Source: a virus. Taken from it: a stretch of 20,697 nucleotides of DNA. Within the stretch, counting starts at the first letter, position 1. Each line of letters starts with the position of its first letter. The notes below the pieces were generated by a model. That model was not told where the DNA came from, made no database searches, and saw only the letters and a list, made by a program, of their open reading frames with translations. This document shows positions 49 through 13,339 of the stretch, in pieces. A program made the position numbers and the translations under genes. The stretch spans positions 1 through 20,697 of IMG/VR virus record IMGVR_UViG_3300017917_001170, one strand, 5' to 3'.

Positions 49-71
49 GAAAGACCCATTAGGCATCTTTC
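49..71 (-). promoter_or_regulatory. leader hairpin between dnaK and the next gene
   Basis: On the minus-strand RNA, GAAAGA (71-66) pairs with UCUUUC (54-49), with a G-U pair and two C-G pairs above, a bulged G, and a UAAU apical loop. The core TGCCTAATGGG is identical to the hairpin at 1999-2023, but the stem differs and still pairs. The 5' arm encodes the last residues of DnaK, and the TAA stop lies in the loop. A GTTTTT run follows, then the shared segment ATCTTGCTTAA and the Shine-Dalgarno of the next gene. It could be an mRNA-end stabiliser, a protein-binding operator or a leaky terminator. Confidence 0.6.
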
Positions 72-1966
72 TTAACTTCAGTAAACTCAGCATCCACTAC
101 GTCTGCTGGTTTTTCTGAATTAGTTTCAGCACCTGGTTCAACTGTTGCTGATTCTGCAGCTTGTTTAGCAGCAAACAGAGGACCTGCTACATTACCTATG
201 GCAATTAAAGCATCACTTATCTTTTCAATGTCGTCTCCTTTAGAGACTTCTTCTAAGGTGCTTAATGCTTCTTCAATTTTAGCCTTTTCATCATCAGTAA
301 TTTTACTACCGTGTTCTTCAAGAGCTTTCTTTACTCCCCATATCTGATGATCTGCTTGGTTCTTACTGTCAATCAATGCTTTGGCTTTGGCATCTGCATC
401 TTTGTTGGCTTCTGCTTCGTCTACCATGCGTTGAATTTCTTCTTCAGTTAAACCGCTGTTGGCCTTGATAGTGATCTTGTTTTCTTTGTTGGTTTTCTTG
501 TCTTTGGCACTGACTTTTAAGATACCGTTAGCATCAATGTCCAAGGTAATTTCAATCTGAGGCATACCGCGAGGTGCTGGGTCAATACCTTCAAGATTAA
601 ATTCGCCAAGTTTCTTGTTATACTGTACAAGTTCACGCTCACCTTGGAAAATAGCCACTGTAACTGCTGGCTGATTATCTTCAGCAGTACTGAACACCTG
701 TGTAGCCTTAGTAGGAATAGTTGTGTTTTTCTTAATCAACTTAGTCATCACACCGCCCATGGTTTCGATGCCTAGGCTCAGCGGAGTAACGTCTAGCAGT
801 AGTACGTCTGTTTTATCACCAGCTAGCACAGCGCCTTGAATGGCAGCACCAACTGCTACTGCTTCGTCTGGGTTAACATCCTTGCGTGGTGCCTTGCCAA
901 ACAGTTTCTCAACTGCTTCTTGTACCTTAGGCATACGTGTTTGACCACCAACCAAGATGACTTCATCAATGTCGCTAGCAGTAACACCTGCGTCTTTTAG
1001 GGCTACCTTACATGGCTCTATACTGCGTTGAATTAGTTCATCAACTAGACTTTCAAACTTAGCACGTGTAATAGTCACGTTTAAGTGCTTAGGACCTGAG
1101 GCATCGGCAGTTACGTATGGTAAATTCACTGTAGTTGAAGATGAACTTGATAGTTCGATCTTGGCCTTTTCTGCTGATTCTTTTAGGCGTTGTAAGGCTA
1201 AGACGTCTTTGCTTAGATCAACACCACTTTCTTTCTTGAATTCTTCAATTAAGTAGTCCATGATACGTTGGTCAAAGTCTTCACCACCTAAGAATGTATC
1301 ACCGTTAGTGGCCAATACTTCAAATTGTTTTTCACCGTCTACATTGATAATATCAATAATACTGATATCAAATGTACCACCACCTAGGTCATACACAGCA
1401 ACCTTGCGATCTTGTTTATCTGCTTTATCAACGCCGTAGGCTAAGGCAGCCGCTGTAGGTTCGTTGATAATACGTAGAACTTCTAGGCCAGCAATAGTAC
1501 CTGCGTCTTTGGTTGCTTGACGTTGCGCATCATTAAAGTAAGCTGGTACCGTAATCACAGCCTGTGTTACTTCGTGTCCTAGGTAGTCTTCAGCAGTTTG
1601 CTTCATCTTTTTAAGAACTTCTGCTGAAATCTGAGGTGGTGCTAACTTCTTATCGTCAATTTCAACCCATGCGTCACCATTGGTGTTTTCTACAATCTTG
1701 TAGGGCATTAGGTCAATGTCTTTTTGTACAGCCTGCTCTTTGAACTTGCGTCCAATTAAGCGTTTAGCTGCGTATACTGTTTTCTTTGGATTAGTAACTG
1801 CCTGACGTTTAGCACTAGCACCAACTAGAATTTCATCGCCGTAGGCAACGATACTAGGTGTAGTGCGAGCACCTTCGTTATTTTCAATTACTTTAGGTTT
1901 GTTGTTTTCAAGAATGGCCACACATGAGTTTGTGGTGCCGAGGTCAATACCGATGATCTTAGACAT
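59..1966 (-). CDS. dnaK: molecular chaperone DnaK (Hsp70), phage-encoded, full length
   Basis: This 635-residue protein matches bacterial DnaK (E. coli: 638) from end to end. It has the N-terminal nucleotide-binding signature IDLGTTNS, the DLGGGTFD phosphate loop, [11 protein letters not shown], and the interdomain linker VLLLDVTP near residue 390. The substrate-binding beta domain, helical lid and canonical tail [14 protein letters not shown] follow. ATP-driven cycles of binding and release refold or assemble client proteins, normally with DnaJ and GrpE, neither of which is visible here. The start is well supported by AAGGAG seven bases before the ATG. No truncation or lost motif is visible, so it should be active. 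From memory, stretches such as [28 protein letters not shown] and [11 protein letters not shown] resemble betaproteobacterial DnaK, which suggests capture from a host. It is preceded by a late promoter and a hairpin leader, so it is probably made late, perhaps for virion protein folding. Confidence 0.98.
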
Positions 1967-5028: not shown

Positions 5029-5339
5029 CCATTTAATGATTGAAAATAGTCCAAAGGTGCTTTGATAGTTTGATCAGCCCCAACTCGTTCAACAATAGCA
5101 CAGTTTACTATACTAACTTTACTGTTATCGTTAATTAGAACTTTGTCTGAAAGCTCTGTTATTGTTTGAAGATACTGTAGATCTCCCCAATCACCGTTGT
5201 AAAGATATATGTCATAGTCTTTATCTGCTGCTGCACAGAAAAGTCCTACCTGTTCAATTTCATCAGGTGTAGGATCTATTAGGGTAACTGTGTAATTTTC
5301 TTTTGCTACAAAATCTGGTACTGTGATAAACCTACTCAT
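5025..5339 (-). CDS. conserved-looking phage protein of unknown function
   Basis: This is a 104-residue acidic protein with no recognised domain. It alternates short strands and helices (VTLIDPTPDEIEQVGLFC, YDIYLYNG, VSIVNCAIV), as in a small alpha/beta fold. No signal peptide, membrane segment or catalytic motif is visible. Its ATG overlaps the stop of the upstream membrane-protein gene by four bases (ATGA), so the two are probably cotranslated. The codon pattern is coherent over the whole frame, which supports a real gene. Confidence 0.65.
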   Translation of the reverse strand: MSRFITVPDFVAKENYTVTLIDPTPDEIEQVGLFCAAADKDYDIYLYNGDWGDLQYLQTITELSDKVLINDNSKVSIVNCAIVERVGADQTIKAPLDYFQSLNG

Positions 5340-6829
5340 CTAAGGTTACTCCGTGTTGAATAATCAAGGTGTTTTAGCACTTCTTCTTGTTCTGGTTTGG
5401 TCAAATCGTCAAAGCTGTATTCTCCAGATTTAACCTTGTCAGTTATGTATTTTATATACTCTGCTTCATATATGTATTGGTCAGTAGTTTCACGGTCTAC
5501 TTCTATCCACTTAACACCGTTCCATTTGTACAGTCGGTTAGGCAAGTAGTCTACACGTAGATAAAGGTCGCCCTTGTTAGGATTTGTAGGAAACTTAGTA
5601 CCAAAACTTGCGTTAGTTTTTTTAGGTGCAGACTCTGCATTGTCTGCGTCCTCAGCAGTCAGAGCAAATTGCGATGAATTTTTTAATCTTTGTATTTCTG
5701 CTTCTTTTTCTTGTATCAGTAAGATAGCACTGGCTAAATCTTTTTCGGTCTGTTCAAGCTGAGCATGTTCGTCGATCACGCGACTGGCCCAAGTTTCTTC
5801 GTTTTCTAACACAGGAATATCTTCAGGAAAATGTCCACTGTTAGCATCTATTGCCTGGGCAAGTTTTTGACCCTGTTCAAAAAACTCTTTGGCTTTGGGC
5901 TCTGCAGTAAACAGTGTGTCAGTCATAGCGACCTGCACGTTAGCTTGACTGTTGATTTCATCAATTTGACTATCGTTCAAAGGCTCAATATCATGCCAAG
6001 GATTTTCTGTATCGGGTACCCACTCTTGATGCCACCCTTCTGGATGGCTATCAGCTTTTTTTGGCTTGCGGTCCGTCCTTGCCCACTCTATTGTCTGCTC
6101 ACCTGCTAGGATAAGAACTAGAGCTAAAGGATCGAATACTAATACTAGTAGAATAATAACCCAACGCACAGCTCGCTCTAACAAGTTAGCGTCTGGGTTA
6201 TCACCATAGATAAGTGCTGCAATATATTTAACTGGTCCTACTTCTGCTTCAATTTTACGTGTCTGCGCAGCCAGAGGAGCACGTTCATTTTGTAGTCTGC
6301 TGATGTTTTGCTGTGCTTGTGTGATTTCTCGCTGTAGGTTTTTACGTTCAGCGGCCTGTTGTTTACGTATTTGTACTGCGCGATTAGTACCCTTGTCGTC
6401 TGTGGTACGACTTAACATTTGATCAACCTGTGCATCCATTTGAGATAGGGCACGTTTGGCACTGTCAATGTTTGATTTTTCTGTGGCGATCTTTTCATCT
6501 AATATAGCTACCTGAGCAGCACTGTCACCTACTGTGACTGTTTGGTCCATGTGTGCTTTGCTTAGAAAACCAAAGATACCCATAGAGGTAATGATCATTA
6601 GAATTACAATGGCAGGTATTAGATATAGTTTAAACTGTATGCTGGCGCGGTGCCAGTATCTATGTAACCATACTGTGGCTACTATTTTACCTGCTTCTAA
6701 TGCACCGCCCATGATAATCACAGGTACCACAGCCGCGGCAAATATAGCACAGAGACCTGCGATACTGTAGTATGCGGCCACTGCTGATATAGTAAGTGCA
6801 ACGGTTAATGTAAATATGCCAAATATCAT
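5336..6829 (-). CDS. coiled-coil membrane protein with a C-terminal fibre-like motif
   Basis: This is a 497-residue protein. The N-terminus has hydrophobic segments at about 2-22, 25-47 and 69-91, with the sequence GGALEAGKIVA between the second and third. A charged coiled coil (about 105-200) rich in Gln, Lys and Glu follows, then a fourth hydrophobic segment, WVIILLVLVFDPLALVLILAG. A long charged stretch with more coiled coil leads to a short aromatic-glycine motif, GDLYLRVDYLPNRLYKWNG. That motif resembles a beta-hairpin common in phage tail and fibre proteins. I recall similar membrane proteins in marine T4-like phages but no assigned function. A late promoter ends eight bases before the ATG, and no Shine-Dalgarno is visible, so the late mRNA would be leaderless or nearly so. 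Roles in the membrane late in infection (adsorption block, lysis timing, assembly) are guesses. Confidence 0.8.
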   Translation of the reverse strand: MIFGIFTLTVALTISAVAAYYSIAGLCAIFAAAVVPVIIMGGALEAGKIVATVWLHRYWHRASIQFKLYLIPAIVILMIITSMGIFGFLSKAHMDQTVTVGDSAAQVAILDEKIATEKSNIDSAKRALSQMDAQVDQMLSRTTDDKGTNRAVQIRKQQAAERKNLQREITQAQQNISRLQNERAPLAAQTRKIEAEVGPVKYIAALIYGDNPDANLLERAVRWVIILLVLVFDPLALVLILAGEQTIEWARTDRKPKKADSHPEGWHQEWVPDTENPWHDIEPLNDSQIDEINSQANVQVAMTDTLFTAEPKAKEFFEQGQKLAQAIDANSGHFPEDIPVLENEETWASRVIDEHAQLEQTEKDLASAILLIQEKEAEIQRLKNSSQFALTAEDADNAESAPKKTNASFGTKFPTNPNKGDLYLRVDYLPNRLYKWNGVKWIEVDRETTDQYIYEAEYIKYITDKVKSGEYSFDDLTKPEQEEVLKHLDYSTRSNLR

Positions 6830-6836
6830 AGTTTTT

Positions 6837-6844
6837 TATTTATA
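6837..6844 (-). promoter_or_regulatory. T4-type late promoter immediately before the coiled-coil membrane protein
   Basis: The minus strand reads TATAAATA, then seven bases, then ATG at 6829. Starting about six bases past the box would give a leader of only about two bases. The box overlaps the inner arm of the inverted repeat at 6841-6861. Confidence 0.65.
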
Positions 6845-8895: not shown

Positions 8896-9171
8896 TTAAG
8901 CAGAACAACTAGAACTTGCGCCACCACCTGTTTCAGTAACTGTTACAGTGCCTGCGTCTTTTACTGCCAAGACCGCTACTCGAGAACACTTCACTGGAAG
9001 ATTTAGGTCGATAGTTTGCCCGGCACGTAGAAGTGCGCAGTTGTTGTTAGCTTCAGGATTTTCACCCACACGCCAGTAGACTGGTACTGTGGTGTGTATT
9101 TTAATAGGTCCTTTGCGCAACACTGGAGTTGCTTGGCTTTGGTTATTGGCGGTAATTACAAATGATGTCAT
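8896..9171 (-). CDS. small beta-rich protein, probable virion component
   Basis: This is a 91-residue protein with alternating beta pattern throughout (SFVITANN, IKIHTTVPVYWRVGENP, ALLRAGQTIDLNLPV, RVAVLAVKDAGTVTVTE) and a small Gly/Ser/Cys tail. This is the look of a beta-sandwich decoration or adhesin-like domain. I recall similar short proteins in marine T4-like phages, without a name. It is the first gene after the terminator at about 9190-9215. The minus strand just upstream has CTAAATA ending five bases before the ATG, a weak late-box resemblance that would again give a leaderless start. Confidence 0.68.
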   Translation of the reverse strand: MTSFVITANNQSQATPVLRKGPIKIHTTVPVYWRVGENPEANNNCALLRAGQTIDLNLPVKCSRVAVLAVKDAGTVTVTETGGGASSSCSA

Positions 9172-9184
9172 GCAAATATTTAGC

Positions 9185-9870: not shown

Positions 9871-9969
9871 TTAGAAGCAGTACATGCCAATTAACAAACC
9901 TGCGATAAACAAACAAGCCCAACCTACTAAACGATCACCTAGGTCAGCATCATCAAATAAGTTCCACAT
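9871..9969 (-). CDS. 32-residue single-span membrane peptide
   Basis: A short frame starts at the ATG at 9969 and reads MWNLFDDADLGDRLVGWACL, then a hydrophobic tail rich in Leu, Ile and Gly. One membrane segment covers about residues 13-31. The ATG overlaps the upstream stop as TAATG, AAGGAGG lies ten bases before it, and its stop TAA is the first base of the next gene's TAAGGAG. This fit into the operon spacing supports a real gene. The function is unknown. A small inner-membrane modulator is possible. Confidence 0.6.
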   Translation of the reverse strand: MWNLFDDADLGDRLVGWACLFIAGLLIGMYCF

Positions 9970-10232
9970 TATGCAGCCTCCTTAACAAATTTTTCTTGGT
10001 TAAACATGATAAACTTGGCAATATTCATATATTGACGAGCACGGTTAGCAGTTTCTGGACTTACCCACCCATCAGCGTTGAATTCTGGGTCTAAAATCTG
10101 TTGCGCATCGCTCAGCATGCCAGCAGCAAACATTAATTCTGTGCCTGGAAAAGCCTGGATTTTAACCATGTTAACGATAGCTGCTTCGCTCATACCGTAT
10201 GCTTGCATTTCCCACTGTAGATCTTTAGCCAT
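9969..10232 (-). CDS. small, mostly helical phage protein of unknown function
   Basis: This is an 87-residue protein predicted largely helical (DLQWEMQAYGMSEAAIVNMV, MFAAGMLSDAQQILD, ETANRARQYMNIAKFIMF). I recognise no domain. A strong sigma70-type promoter lies upstream at 10267-10295, with a leader of about 28 bases that includes AAGGAG ten bases before the ATG. It starts a four-gene set coupled by TAATG junctions and ended by the terminator at 9185-9212. Confidence 0.7.
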   Translation of the reverse strand: MAKDLQWEMQAYGMSEAAIVNMVKIQAFPGTELMFAAGMLSDAQQILDPEFNADGWVSPETANRARQYMNIAKFIMFNQEKFVKEAA

Positions 10233-10266: not shown

Positions 10267-10295
10267 ATTATAGACTCTTTTTACCAAAAAGTCAA
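10267..10295 (-). promoter_or_regulatory. sigma70-type promoter P1 (TTGACTTTTT class)
   Basis: The minus strand has TTGACT (10295-10290), a 17-bp spacer and a perfect TATAAT (10272-10267). Transcription would start near 10260, giving a 28-base leader. The -35 overlaps the TGA stop of the upstream membrane-protein gene. The ten bases TTGACTTTTT are shared with three other promoters here. Confidence 0.8.
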
Positions 10296-10528
10296 CCAAA
10301 AAATGCCTTAAAAATGCCAAAAGTTCCAATACTAATACTAATAAAGTTAACTAAAGTCTGCGGTTTGTTCCGTGTTCTAATACTCCATGTTAGGAAGCAG
10401 GCTGTGCCAAAAAAGAACACTACGATGTTCCATGGATAAACACTTGGGCCAACAGCATTTAGGCTGTGCCCTGCTATGACCAACGGAGCGCCAGTCCACT
10501 GTAGGATATCGTTAGTTGTTAATTTCAT
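10292..10528 (-). CDS. small multi-span membrane protein
   Basis: This is a 78-residue protein with hydrophobic segments at about 10-28, 33-51 and 59-76, separated by a basic turn (RTRNKPQ). Two or three membrane passes are likely. No motif identifies a function. Holin-like size and hydrophobicity are noted, but the middle segments and the early-type promoter do not favour a holin. It is preceded by promoter P2, whose predicted first base is the A of the ATG, so its mRNA should be leaderless. Its stop overlaps the -35 of promoter P1. Confidence 0.72.
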   Translation of the reverse strand: MKLTTNDILQWTGAPLVIAGHSLNAVGPSVYPWNIVVFFFGTACFLTWSIRTRNKPQTLVNFISISIGTFGIFKAFFG

Positions 10529-10534
10529 TATAAG

Positions 10535-10563
10535 AGTATAGCATCACATAACCAAAAAGTCAA
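10535..10563 (-). promoter_or_regulatory. sigma70-type promoter P2, leaderless geometry
   Basis: The minus strand has TTGACT (10563-10558), 17 bp, then TATACT (10540-10535). Six bases separate the -10 from the ATG at 10528, so the usual +1 (seven bases past the -10) falls on the A of the start codon. It lies back to back with P3. Confidence 0.78.
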
Positions 10564-10585
10564 GTGAACTTTAGTTTGACTTTTT
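10554..10585. repeat. inverted repeat formed by the divergent promoters P2 and P3
   Basis: AAAAAGTCAA (10554-10563) and TTGACTTTTT (10576-10585) form a perfect 10-bp inverted repeat around 12 bases. It consists of the two -35 regions with their T-runs. It may be simply two facing promoters or a dyad for a regulator of both. Confidence 0.7.
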
Positions 10586-10604
10586 CATTAACTGAGTATA
10601 TAAT
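10576..10604 (+). promoter_or_regulatory. sigma70-type promoter P3, leaderless geometry
   Basis: TTGACT (10576-10581), 17 bp, and a perfect TATAAT (10599-10604). The ATG at 10611 begins exactly seven bases after the -10, where transcription should start. No room remains for a Shine-Dalgarno sequence. It drives the plus-strand run starting at 10611. Confidence 0.82.
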
Positions 10605-10610
10605 AACAGT

Positions 10611-10841
10611 ATGAAAATCTTATTGGAACAAGAAGGCAGACATTTAAGAATGTTTGTAGTACACTCAGATACTCACGCAGATGACATGAGTTGGGCCGCT
10701 ACTATTGCTGACATGGATGCTGAACTTAAAGGTCGACAAGGTGTCAAACGTATGAGTTACGACACTTGGCACTGGGACCTGCGTCGGCGCAGAGAAGCAG
10801 AAGAATACATCACATATTTTTATTTGAAACACGGAAAATGA
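10611..10841 (+). CDS. small protein, member of the C-terminal-motif paralogue array
   Basis: This is a 76-residue basic protein (KILLEQEGRHLRMFVVHSDT). Its C-terminal part, WHWDLRRRREAEEYITYFYL, resembles a degenerate version of the pattern seen at the ends of several genes in 10.6-15.1 kb: an aromatic strand, a charged Glu/Asp turn, then an Ala-x-x-Phe-x-Leu helix. It is the first gene after promoter P3 and appears to be read from a leaderless mRNA. Its TGA overlaps the ATG of the next gene (ATGA). Function unknown. No DNA-binding or catalytic motif is visible. Confidence 0.68.
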   Translation: MKILLEQEGRHLRMFVVHSDTHADDMSWAATIADMDAELKGRQGVKRMSYDTWHWDLRRRREAEEYITYFYLKHGK

Positions 10842-11143
10842 CCAGCCTGATATATCGCCACAATCCACACATAGTTAAAATGGACCGTAGATATAGATTA
10901 TATAATCAAGGGTTCAGATATCGTCTTGAGTTTGAAACCTACGGTGAAGGTAAGTGGGATCGTTGGGCCAGGGTCGTCGCTTGGTGTGAGCGCACCTGGG
11001 GCAAAGAACATGACTGGCACTGGCCAGTAAGTAAATGGAATGAAAACTATAGAACGGCCTGGCCTAAAAATAACAACTATAGACAGTTGTTCTTAAGGAC
11101 TGAAGAAGATTTAACAATGATGTTATTGGTAATGGGCGAATGA
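10838..11143 (+). CDS. small Trp/Tyr-rich protein, possible member of the paralogue array
   Basis: The start is placed at the ATG at 10838, which overlaps the previous stop as ATGA. The product is 101 residues. A longer frame from 10766 would run deep into the upstream gene and is less likely. It is rich in Trp, Tyr, Arg and Lys (RWARVVAWCERTWG, DWHWPVSKWNENY) and ends in LFLRTEEDLTMMLLV, matching the strand-turn-helix motif of the array. No known domain. It overlaps the methyltransferase-like gene by four bases. Confidence 0.68.
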   Translation: MTSLIYRHNPHIVKMDRRYRLYNQGFRYRLEFETYGEGKWDRWARVVAWCERTWGKEHDWHWPVSKWNENYRTAWPKNNNYRQLFLRTEEDLTMMLLVMGE

Positions 11144-12318
11144 TTACAATAGAAGATTTACATCGTACATGGGGCACTGAACAGTATCACACTCATGCCT
11201 TGCTACAAGGACTAGACGAGTTCACCTGTTACGAAGGTGTACTTGAACAGTTAAGCACATATACCAAAGAACGGTATCAAGCCAACCCAGATAAGGTTGT
11301 TGAAGAAATATTTGATATCTATCGTAGTATCAATATTGTGCCTATTGTCTACTACACTGAAGCTGGAGTAAAACGTGCCATTATGAATTTAGATCACACT
11401 GTGGCTAACAATGTAGAAATTATAGAAAAAGATGGTATTACTGTTAAGAAGTCACCCAGTATACCATTAGGTAATAATCAAGGACAAAGTATCAATAGAT
11501 TTTGTTTTCCTAACATGATGACTGCTGAGCCCAAAGGTCGTGGCAGTAATAGTCTACGGGATCGTTTCAATGATGATAGAAAACTCGAGCGTGCTATCCG
11601 TCTTTGTTTTGAGCATAGGGATGGTGCTAATCTCGCTGGACCGACAGCATTACGTAGAGCTTTGGAGTTGGTTACTGGAGAAAACATACAAAATTTCAAG
11701 CCTCTCAATGCTCGCGCTATTGTTGAGTATCTATGCCCTACTATTTGGGGTAATGTATATGATTACTCAGCAGGCTACGGTGGTAGGCTTCTAGGTATTG
11801 CTACTAGCAAAATGCGTTTTAACTATGTAGGTATAGATCCCAACACAGAAACCGTGGGTTACTTAAATTACTTAAATGATTTAATCTACGATACTGTAGG
11901 CAATCGTGGGGTCATTGTTCAATCGGTGTCGGAGGAATATCGTCCAGATGGAGGTGTTGATTTGGCCTTTAGTAGTCCGCCCTACTTTAACTTAGAAAAG
12001 TATTCTGATGAGCCTACACAGTGTATGAATCGTTACACTACCTTAGATGATTGGTTTGAAGGTTACGTGGTTCCCACTATGTGTAATATACATACAAGTT
12101 TAGAACCGGATGGTATATTTGCTACTAATATTGCTGACTATAAAGTGGGTGGCAATAAAGAATTCAAAGTTGTAGAGCGTTGGATTGAGACTGCTGAAAA
12201 ACTAGGATTCAAACACAAGTCAACTATACGTATGATGCTGAACACACGTCCAGGTGTAGGTAACGATAAAACAGCGGGGCGTGAAAAGTGGGAAGGCGTC
12301 TATGTGTTTAAGAAATAA
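11140..12318 (+). CDS. DNA methyltransferase-like protein (amino-methyltransferase type)
   Basis: This is a 392-residue protein. Residues 208-215 (DYSAGYGG, followed by RLLGIA) look like the S-adenosylmethionine-binding motif I. GIDPNT is the motif II acidic loop, and Ser278-Ser-Pro-Pro-Tyr282 (FSSPPYF) is the catalytic motif IV of N4-cytosine/N6-adenine methyltransferases. DIFATNIADYKV-like strands (GIFATNIADYKVG) follow. Motif I before motif IV is the alpha/gamma-like order. The first 130 residues match nothing I recognise and may recognise the target. No partner endonuclease is nearby, so it is probably an orphan enzyme for protecting or marking phage DNA. RNA as a substrate is not excluded. 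Its ATG overlaps the upstream stop (ATGA), and a 67-residue gene follows at eight bases. Confidence 0.8.
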   Translation: MITIEDLHRTWGTEQYHTHALLQGLDEFTCYEGVLEQLSTYTKERYQANPDKVVEEIFDIYRSINIVPIVYYTEAGVKRAIMNLDHTVANNVEIIEKDGITVKKSPSIPLGNNQGQSINRFCFPNMMTAEPKGRGSNSLRDRFNDDRKLERAIRLCFEHRDGANLAGPTALRRALELVTGENIQNFKPLNARAIVEYLCPTIWGNVYDYSAGYGGRLLGIATSKMRFNYVGIDPNTETVGYLNYLNDLIYDTVGNRGVIVQSVSEEYRPDGGVDLAFSSPPYFNLEKYSDEPTQCMNRYTTLDDWFEGYVVPTMCNIHTSLEPDGIFATNIADYKVGGNKEFKVVERWIETAEKLGFKHKSTIRMMLNTRPGVGNDKTAGREKWEGVYVFKK

Positions 12319-12326
12319 CAGGAATT

Positions 12327-12530
12327 ATGGGTATAAAATTCAAAAAGGTTGTAAGAGGTGAACATGCTTGCATCTATGGACTCATAGAAGATATCAGCAG
12401 TGTAGAGTATGCTCAGGTAGTCAACTGGCTTGACACACACTGCCCTAATGCCTATGAGTTTGGCAATACGCATTTGTTTATTAATAGAGATGCAGAATTG
12501 TTTTTTGAATTGACTTTTTCTATAGAATAG
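12327..12530 (+). CDS. small protein of the paralogue array
   Basis: This 67-residue protein has the array pattern: a central strand and helix (IEDISSVEYAQVVNWLDTHC), then THLFINRDAELFFELTF. It aligns by eye with the second half of the protein at 14692-15132: Asp-Ile-Ser, Trp-(Leu/Met)-Asp, then a strand with Asp-Ala-x-x-Phe. AGGA precedes the ATG by about four to five bases. Promoter P4 begins inside its last codons. Function unknown. Confidence 0.68.
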   Translation: MGIKFKKVVRGEHACIYGLIEDISSVEYAQVVNWLDTHCPNAYEFGNTHLFINRDAELFFELTFSIE

Positions 12531-12538
12531 TTTATAAT
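12510..12538 (+). promoter_or_regulatory. sigma70-type promoter P4, leaderless geometry
   Basis: TTGACT (12510-12515), 17 bp, and a perfect TATAAT (12533-12538), then six bases and the ATG at 12545. The predicted +1 is the A of the ATG. The -35 lies within the end of the preceding gene. The first 11 bases, TTGACTTTTTC, are identical to P3. Confidence 0.8.
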
Positions 12539-12544
12539 ATACAT

Positions 12545-13339
12545 ATGAAGATTGCACTTGCATCAGATCTACACCTTGAATTTGGTGATATAGAACTTAA
12601 GAACACAGAGAATGCTGATGTTCTAATTCTTGCTGGCGACATTTGTGTGATTGATCACTTTAGATACGGTAATCATTACAGCGAACGCTACTTTAACTTC
12701 TTTGATCGTGTGTCAAAAGAGTTCCCTCATGTCATTTACATTTTAGGCAATCACGAATTCTACGATTACGACATTCCCAAAGCCGAAGAAAAGATTAAGT
12801 ATTGTCTGAACCATTTAGCTAATGTACACATCTTATGTGATGAGGCATGGACCTTAGATGGCTACACTTTTATTGGCGGAACATTGTGGACTGACTGTAA
12901 TGGGGAAGATCCGTTAACTCTGCACGCTGTTGAGCACATGATGCATGACTTCCGTTGCATTCATGACAGTAGTAAACCTGTAGATGGTACTAAGAAATTT
13001 TTACCTAAAGATGCTGCACAGCGCAATCATCGTTTCTTAGACTACATAGATGCTGTGATAGGTGGTGATAGCAAGTACGTAGTTGTTGGACATCACGGTG
13101 CCACACATAAGAGCATTGATGCCAAGTATGCTAATGCTGGATTAATTAATCACGGCTTTGTGAACGACTTAGAAGATTACATAGCCTATCGTGAAAAGAT
13201 CCTACTGTGGATACACGGGCACACACATGATCCGTTTGACTATATGGTAGGCACTACTCGTGTTTGTGCTAACCCACGTGGTTACGTTGGATACGAGCCG
13301 CAAGCAGAAACTTTTAAACTACAGTACATTGATCTATGA
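12545..13339 (+). CDS. calcineurin-like metallophosphoesterase
   Basis: This 264-residue protein has the full metallophosphoesterase signature: Asp8-x-His10 (SDLHLEF), Gly31-Asp32 (AGDIC), Gly68-Asn-His-Glu71 (GNHEF), Gly182-His-His184 and Gly225-His-Thr-His228 (HGHTHDP). These residues bind two metal ions and catalyse phosphoester hydrolysis. The substrate could be a phosphoprotein, nucleotide or nucleic acid; sequence alone does not tell. No signal peptide, so it should be cytoplasmic. The ATG has no Shine-Dalgarno sequence but sits exactly at the predicted +1 of promoter P4, and the protein begins directly with the first beta strand, which leaves no alternative start. It overlaps the next gene by four bases. 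Confidence 0.92.
   Translation: MKIALASDLHLEFGDIELKNTENADVLILAGDICVIDHFRYGNHYSERYFNFFDRVSKEFPHVIYILGNHEFYDYDIPKAEEKIKYCLNHLANVHILCDEAWTLDGYTFIGGTLWTDCNGEDPLTLHAVEHMMHDFRCIHDSSKPVDGTKKFLPKDAAQRNHRFLDYIDAVIGGDSKYVVVGHHGATHKSIDAKYANAGLINHGFVNDLEDYIAYREKILLWIHGHTHDPFDYMVGTTRVCANPRGYVGYEPQAETFKLQYIDL

Follow-up and report, generated by a model that had tools for sequence, protein, structure and literature searches.

Leaderless mRNA is a known mode of expression, and the recognition of a 5′-terminal AUG without a Shine–Dalgarno sequence is established in Escherichia coli; in phages, such mRNAs are usually presented as single cases. To our knowledge, lambda cI and similar examples come from temperate phages and are isolated regulatory genes rather than a conserved group of genes for replication. 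Here, we analyzed a 20,697-nucleotide stretch of viral DNA (IMG/VR record IMGVR_UViG_3300017917_001170, positions 1 to 20,697; hereafter the window), in which three of four related sigma70-like promoters stand immediately before an ATG and are predicted to give leaderless mRNAs. Bacterial leaderless genes with a −10 box ∼12 bp before the start have been described in Actinobacteria (PMC3160421) and Deinococcus-Thermus (PMC12340547). They resemble the window's promoters in having a Pribnow box adjoining the start codon and no Shine–Dalgarno sequence but represent a trait of the host, genome-wide in certain phyla, whereas the layout studied here is a phage trait, has a full −35 and −10, concerns only a subset of genes and includes T4-late-type promoters. 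Among phages, lambda cI is treated as a model of leaderless mRNA (PMC9031893) and shares with our cases a phage mRNA starting at the AUG; that phage transcripts are often leaderless is stated in passing (PMC5312081). The likeness to T4 lies in the early sigma70 and late TATAAATA motifs and in the encoded T4-like replication proteins and ribonucleotide reductase, but T4 itself has neither an ATG within 11 nt of the late motif nor a peak of ATGs 6 nt after sigma70-like promoters. Our literature search, which covered few subscription journals, found no report of leaderless mRNAs in T4-like phages, pelagiphages or cyanophages, and, judging from the literature searched, the systematic, gene-specific and conserved use of such mRNAs by a group of phages appears not to have been reported.

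The four promoters and the genes following P2, P3 and P4 (ORF, open reading frame; aa, amino acids) are as follows:

10295-10267, minus strand: sigma70-like promoter P1, TTGACTTTTTGGTAAAAAGAGTCTATAAT, with a 34-nt leader containing AAGGAG, for ORF 9969-10232 on the minus strand (ATG at 10232)
10563-10535, minus strand: sigma70-like promoter P2, TTGACTTTTTGGTTATGTGATGCTATACT, followed by CTTATA and the ATG at 10528
10576-10604, plus strand: sigma70-like promoter P3, divergent from P2, TTGACTTTTTCATTAACTGAGTATATAAT, followed by AACAGT and the ATG at 10611
12510-12538, plus strand: sigma70-like promoter P4, TTGACTTTTTCTATAGAATAGTTTATAAT, followed by ATACAT and the ATG at 12545; overlaps the 3′ end of ORF 12327-12530
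10292..10528, minus strand: P2 gene, 78 aa, no family found, predicted leaderless
10611..10841, plus strand: P3 gene, 76 aa, no family found, predicted leaderless
12545..13339, plus strand: P4 gene, calcineurin-like metallophosphoesterase, 264 aa (PF00149, E = 1.4e-10; phrog_1649, E = 1e-46)

All four share TTGACTTTTT, a 17-bp spacer (counted with TTGACT as the −35) and a −10 of TATAAT or TATACT. An earlier reading of the same DNA, made from the sequence only, had described these elements, together with an ATG whose A is the seventh base after the −10 in P2, P3 and P4, an ordinary leader for P1, and ATG-AA starts without a Shine–Dalgarno sequence in all three genes; each of these observations was reproduced, with exactly 6 nt separating the −10 and the ATG (hereafter offset 6) in each of the three cases. 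The hexamers are of the TTGACA-like/TATAAT-like class with a spacer of 17 ± 1 bp, as in host sigma70-type promoters. The exact TTGACTTTTT occurs four times in the window, and the looser pattern TTGAC-N18-TATANT (at most one mismatch) 11 times against 2.9 expected, a number reached in none of 100 shuffles. The ATGs of the P2 and P3 genes lie only 82 bp apart, a space occupied by the two divergent promoters.

Transcription from bacterial promoters usually begins 6 to 7 nt after the −10. Because of this distance and of the restriction to AUG described below, transcription from P2, P3 and P4 would begin at the A of the start codon or within ∼2 nt of the ATG, and the 5′-terminal AUG would then be recognized for translation without a Shine–Dalgarno sequence. 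We consider it very probable that P2 to P4 are host-sigma70-type promoters giving leaderless mRNAs, as part of a group-wide mode in T4-like myoviruses. The best reading of the genomic patterns is that this T4-like assemblage makes leaderless mRNAs (with leaders of 0 to 2 nt) from both sigma70-type and T4-late-type promoters.

In each of the three genes, the ATG is the first ATG, GTG or TTG past an in-frame stop. The P4 protein carries the metal-binding motif SDLHLE near residues 7–12, and its closeness to the N terminus argues for a start at M1 rather than later. For the P3 gene, codons 2–13 of 13 distinct sequences had 6, 2 and 11 variable sites of 12 at codon positions 1, 2 and 3, a pattern that points to translation beginning at M1 and not at M14.

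To evaluate the spacing, we searched IMG/VR for TTGACTTTTT-N13-TATAAT without selecting for an ATG. None of the 122 matches had an ATG at offset 6, most ATGs lying 20–35 nt away, and the three of four in the window are therefore exceptional. When an offset-6 ATG was demanded, 52 of 104 distinct cases opened an ORF of 100 codons or more compared with 11 of 82 at an offset-12 control; offset 6 is thus real in a minority of viruses. The sequence-only reading had tied the class to TTGACTTTTT, and this part was abandoned: the unselected matches lack the layout, relatives carry other sequences after TTGAC, and TTGACTTTTTGGT is also found at promoters of leadered genes (P1 and, in relatives, the divergent neighbor of P3).

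We then tabulated sigma70-like sites (at most two mismatches) followed by an ATG and an ORF of 40 codons or more in 12 related records (group A) and six more distant ones (group B); most of the records compared are fragments. Group A had such an ATG at offset 6 for 41 of 525 promoters, with counts of 0, 8, 41, 10 and 1 at offsets 4–8 and a second, broad and leadered peak at 29–34 nt; in group B, the corresponding counts were 1, 1, 17, 4 and 2. Decoy hexamers gave means of 1.6 (group A) and 1.2 (group B) at offset 6, with a maximum of 4. There was no sigma70-like offset-6 excess in T4, Xanthomonas phage X1, S-CRM01 and HTVC008M (four cases in total, within the decoys), and a host trait was rejected on 800 kb of ‘Ca. 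Methylopumilus’, which may not be the phage's host and gave four cases at offset 6, again within the decoys. The exact leaderless-promoter pattern had 39 matches in 20 relative records, none with the reversed-pattern control, none in six cultured phages and none in five bacterial genomes; four were present in 4.1 Mb of sequence from 11 cultured jumbo phages encoding a related primase or UV endonuclease. The scan for further promoters and their distances to the ATG, which the sequence-only reading had proposed, thus revealed many more in relatives, with the spacing conserved per gene and absent from the controls.

The start codons at offset 6 were 58 ATG, 2 GTG and 5 TTG. Shine–Dalgarno sequences preceded none of 84 leaderless and 178 of 302 leadered genes, an absence partly forced by the geometry, and codon 2 began with AA in 32 of the 84 and 43 of the 302, respectively. 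About 16 leaderless gene families were shared by at least two records (G001 and G003 being near duplicates), and the recurring ones included primase, DnaB-like helicase, exonucleases, UV endonuclease, a DnaJ-like protein, GIY-YIG endonuclease and metallophosphoesterase; thymidylate synthase was a single case. As judged from these annotations, the replication-related content fits early or middle functions. As a separate observation, group B sequences (L251, L254, L263–L268 and L271) contain a conserved promoter–leader unit, TTGACAATAAATNNNTTTGGGTATATAAT-AGAATCTTAAACAG...AAAGGA...ATG, in many copies per record, which by its sequence is a repeated leadered promoter family.

The layout was conserved gene by gene. 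The P3 gene was present in 26 contigs, and all 24 with upstream sequence retained a TTGACTTT-type −35, a 17-bp spacer, TATAAT and an ATG at offset 6 (7 in L291); these upstream regions comprise 13 distinct sequences, including the window, and the spacer sequence varies freely. In most relatives, the gene divergent to P3 is another one and has a leadered TTGACTTTTTGGT promoter: the predicted leader type travels with the gene. P2-gene relatives with their own promoter had offsets of 6–8 in differing neighborhoods, and in three (L298, L299 and L305) the gene lies directly behind another. L243 retained the P4 layout, as did the phosphoesterase genes of G002, G004 (offset 7) and G014.

Primase provided an independent case. 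Among the best 80 genes from an alignment search (58–100% protein identity), representing 61 distinct upstream regions, the distance from a −10-like box to the ATG was scored as 6 nt in 21, 7 nt in 35 and 8 nt in 3, totaling 59 of 61; the other two were at offset 7 by eye, the −10 being degenerate in L714 and an overlapping hexamer having been picked by the script in L713. A −35-like hexamer was found 17 bp upstream of the −10 in nearly all regions. The cultured relatives RaK2, PBECO4, XbC2, CBB and Munch (32–33% identity) are leadered. In Salicola phage SCTP-2 (L756, MF360958, about 160185), the annotated primase start lies 32 codons downstream of the onset of homology and of a plausible leaderless ATG; the annotation is likely wrong, and the gene appears leaderless if the start is moved to where the homology begins. 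We also observed TTGACA...TATAAT immediately ahead of GTGCGCGTG at the primase of PA5oct (L755, MK797984, 145884), where a non-AUG start near +1 is possible.

Many primase −10s are spanned by an inverted repeat, in which the bases before the −10 pair with the 6–8 nt between the −10 and the ATG. It was seen within the last 24 nt before the ATG in L718, L723, L726, L733, L740, L745, L751, L752 and others, and its sequence differs from phage to phage. Compared with partner-shuffled controls, the longest stem had z of 7 for 80 loci and 4.1 for 18 dissimilar ones, reached in none of 500 shuffles. The repeat may serve as an operator or form a hairpin in read-through RNA. As a general feature of the class it was rejected for groups A and B (z of −0.7), being clear only for primase.

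T4-late-type promoters have a TATAAATA-like −10 and depend on a gp55-like factor. In the phages studied here we assigned them by motif and placement, as a candidate class, and two stand in the window:

9172..9183, minus strand: CTAAATA plus 5 nt directly before the ATG at 9171 of ORF 8896-9171, predicted leaderless; the same layout is found in G002, G004 and G012
6830..6844, minus strand: late-type motif TATAAATA plus 7 nt before the ATG at 6829 of ORF 5336-6829

The latter ORF belongs to a family of 13 members in 12 records with late-motif offsets of 4–7; in the window, it also has a sigma70-like site at 6889-6861 with a 31-nt leader. Across groups A and B, [AC]TAAATA followed by an ATG that opens an ORF of 60 codons or more gave 46, 54, 12 and 25 cases at offsets 4–7, few at offsets 0–3 and 8–15, and a second hump at 16–27; non-AUG starts were at background only. 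The rates for ATAAATA, 0.18 and 0.24, were higher than for any of 20 permuted motifs; the highest-ranking permutation, TAAATAA (0.08), itself overlaps the true motif. T4 has 65 ATAAATA sites, none followed by such an ATG within 11 nt, and its peak was around 25–28. The cultured Pelagibacter phage HTVC008M (NC_020484) contains 11 genes with an ATG exactly 5 nt past [AC]TAAATA, for example at 6280, 7562, 31132 and 49760. The ‘deliberate class’ of early-type promoters proposed from the window thus stood in its gene-by-gene conserved spacing, absent from the controls, but not in its restriction to early-type promoters, T4-late-type ones being placed likewise.

The predicted leaderless set of this large and mostly uncultured assemblage comprises the genes for primase, DnaB-like helicase, exonucleases, UV endonuclease and thymidylate synthase, those for DnaJ-like proteins and metallophosphoesterase, and small orphans, with a further gene set under T4-late-type promoters, and in both sets the promoter stands 4–8 nt before the ATG. 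Other genes of the same phages have longer leaders, often with a Shine–Dalgarno sequence. The simplest advantage would be that the expression signal is compact (∼40 bp) and portable between genes, with an output that would track the state of ribosomes and initiation factors, not Shine–Dalgarno strength.

Several points weigh against this explanation. The missing Shine–Dalgarno sequences are largely dictated by a −10 at that position, and promoter activity in the host is assumed. The P4 gene's relatives differ among themselves: L245–L249 have a −10 and a Shine–Dalgarno leader, and L244 is without this promoter. The counts take in related sequences and the redundancy among records inflates the raw numbers, despite which the argument is carried by the distinct gene families and the decoy tests. 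Offset 7 is common among relatives, and some leaders may be 1–2 nt.

One alternative is that part of the class has leaders of 1–3 nt with heterogeneous start sites. This variant is compatible with leaderless expression and is possible, if doubtful: primase offsets of 7 (35 of 61) and 8 (3 of 61) and the offset 9 of some phosphoesterase relatives speak for it, but the mode is sharply 6 in the window and in the whole sigma70 class. The earlier claim that +1 is the A of the ATG fits the placement in P2 to P4, and with many relatives at offset 7, leaders of 0–2 nt are the safer statement.

A claim of purpose may be added to that of leaderless expression, namely that the class keeps phage genes translated when infection alters initiation factors or 30S subunits. 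Leaderless mRNAs differ in their response to IF3, S1/S2 and ppGpp, and T7 infection phosphorylates initiation factors and S1 (PMC9031893); a distinct response of such mRNAs to kasugamycin or raised IF3 is also reported (PMC5230787, PMC9031893). Each promoter type, however, serves leadered as well as leaderless genes, and no phage factor that acts on initiation came to light, none having been sought; we consider the claim unlikely. Similarly speculative is a split translation program, in which early and late leaderless sets would oppose the Shine–Dalgarno-dependent rest, changes in initiation would shift output between them, and the primase hairpin would silence read-through copies.

It is improbable that the genes are expressed mainly with ordinary leaders from promoters lying upstream and that the −10 adjacent to the ATG is minor or a decoy. 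The P4 gene and primase lie behind codirectional genes, so read-through is possible, and the primase inverted repeat could act in read-through RNA; but P2 and P3 are divergent with both promoters filling the space between them, the spacing is kept while the sequence changes, and a leadered transcript would have no Shine–Dalgarno sequence. Finally, placement by chance or genome compaction is very improbable: phage genomes are compact and AT-rich, but decoys and other offsets gave counts of 1–2 against 41, the peak is missing in equally compact T4-like phages and orthologs conserve the spacing, the decoys, other offsets and outgroups ruling out AT-richness.

The window, as a 20.7-kb record, is probably a fragment. 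It encodes DnaK, the ribonucleotide reductase NrdA/NrdB and glutaredoxin-like genes, and larger relatives encode distant T4-type proteins, mostly 22–43% identical to those of T4. Many of the 34 inspected window genes have a Shine–Dalgarno sequence, and the phage therefore also uses the usual initiation mode; a search for tRNAs in the window found none. Downstream of the P3 gene are the overlapping cistrons 10838-11143 and 11140-12318, followed by 12327-12530. The product of 11140-12318 (plus strand) is a 392-aa, weakly methyltransferase-like protein matching phrog_12517, with its best cultured relatives in Bacteroides phages (36%). The phage DnaK at 59-1966 (minus strand) is up to ∼73% identical to Betaproteobacterial DnaK and forms a long phage branch among Beta- and Gammaproteobacteria in the DnaK tree; in relatives, the mRNAs of DnaJ-like genes are predicted to lack a leader.

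In a widespread T4-like assemblage, promoters of two classes thus place the predicted transcription start on the start codon, with the spacing kept nearly to the base among orthologs. The assemblage would lend itself, as a natural system, to the question of when leaderless translation is favored, with cultured HTVC008M, sharing the late-promoter layout, as a testable laboratory case, and would supply portable expression signals of ∼40 bp. The layout may explain misannotated start codons in phages, as in the SCTP-2 primase, and a differential response of the leaderless class to initiation factors is possible (PMC9031893).

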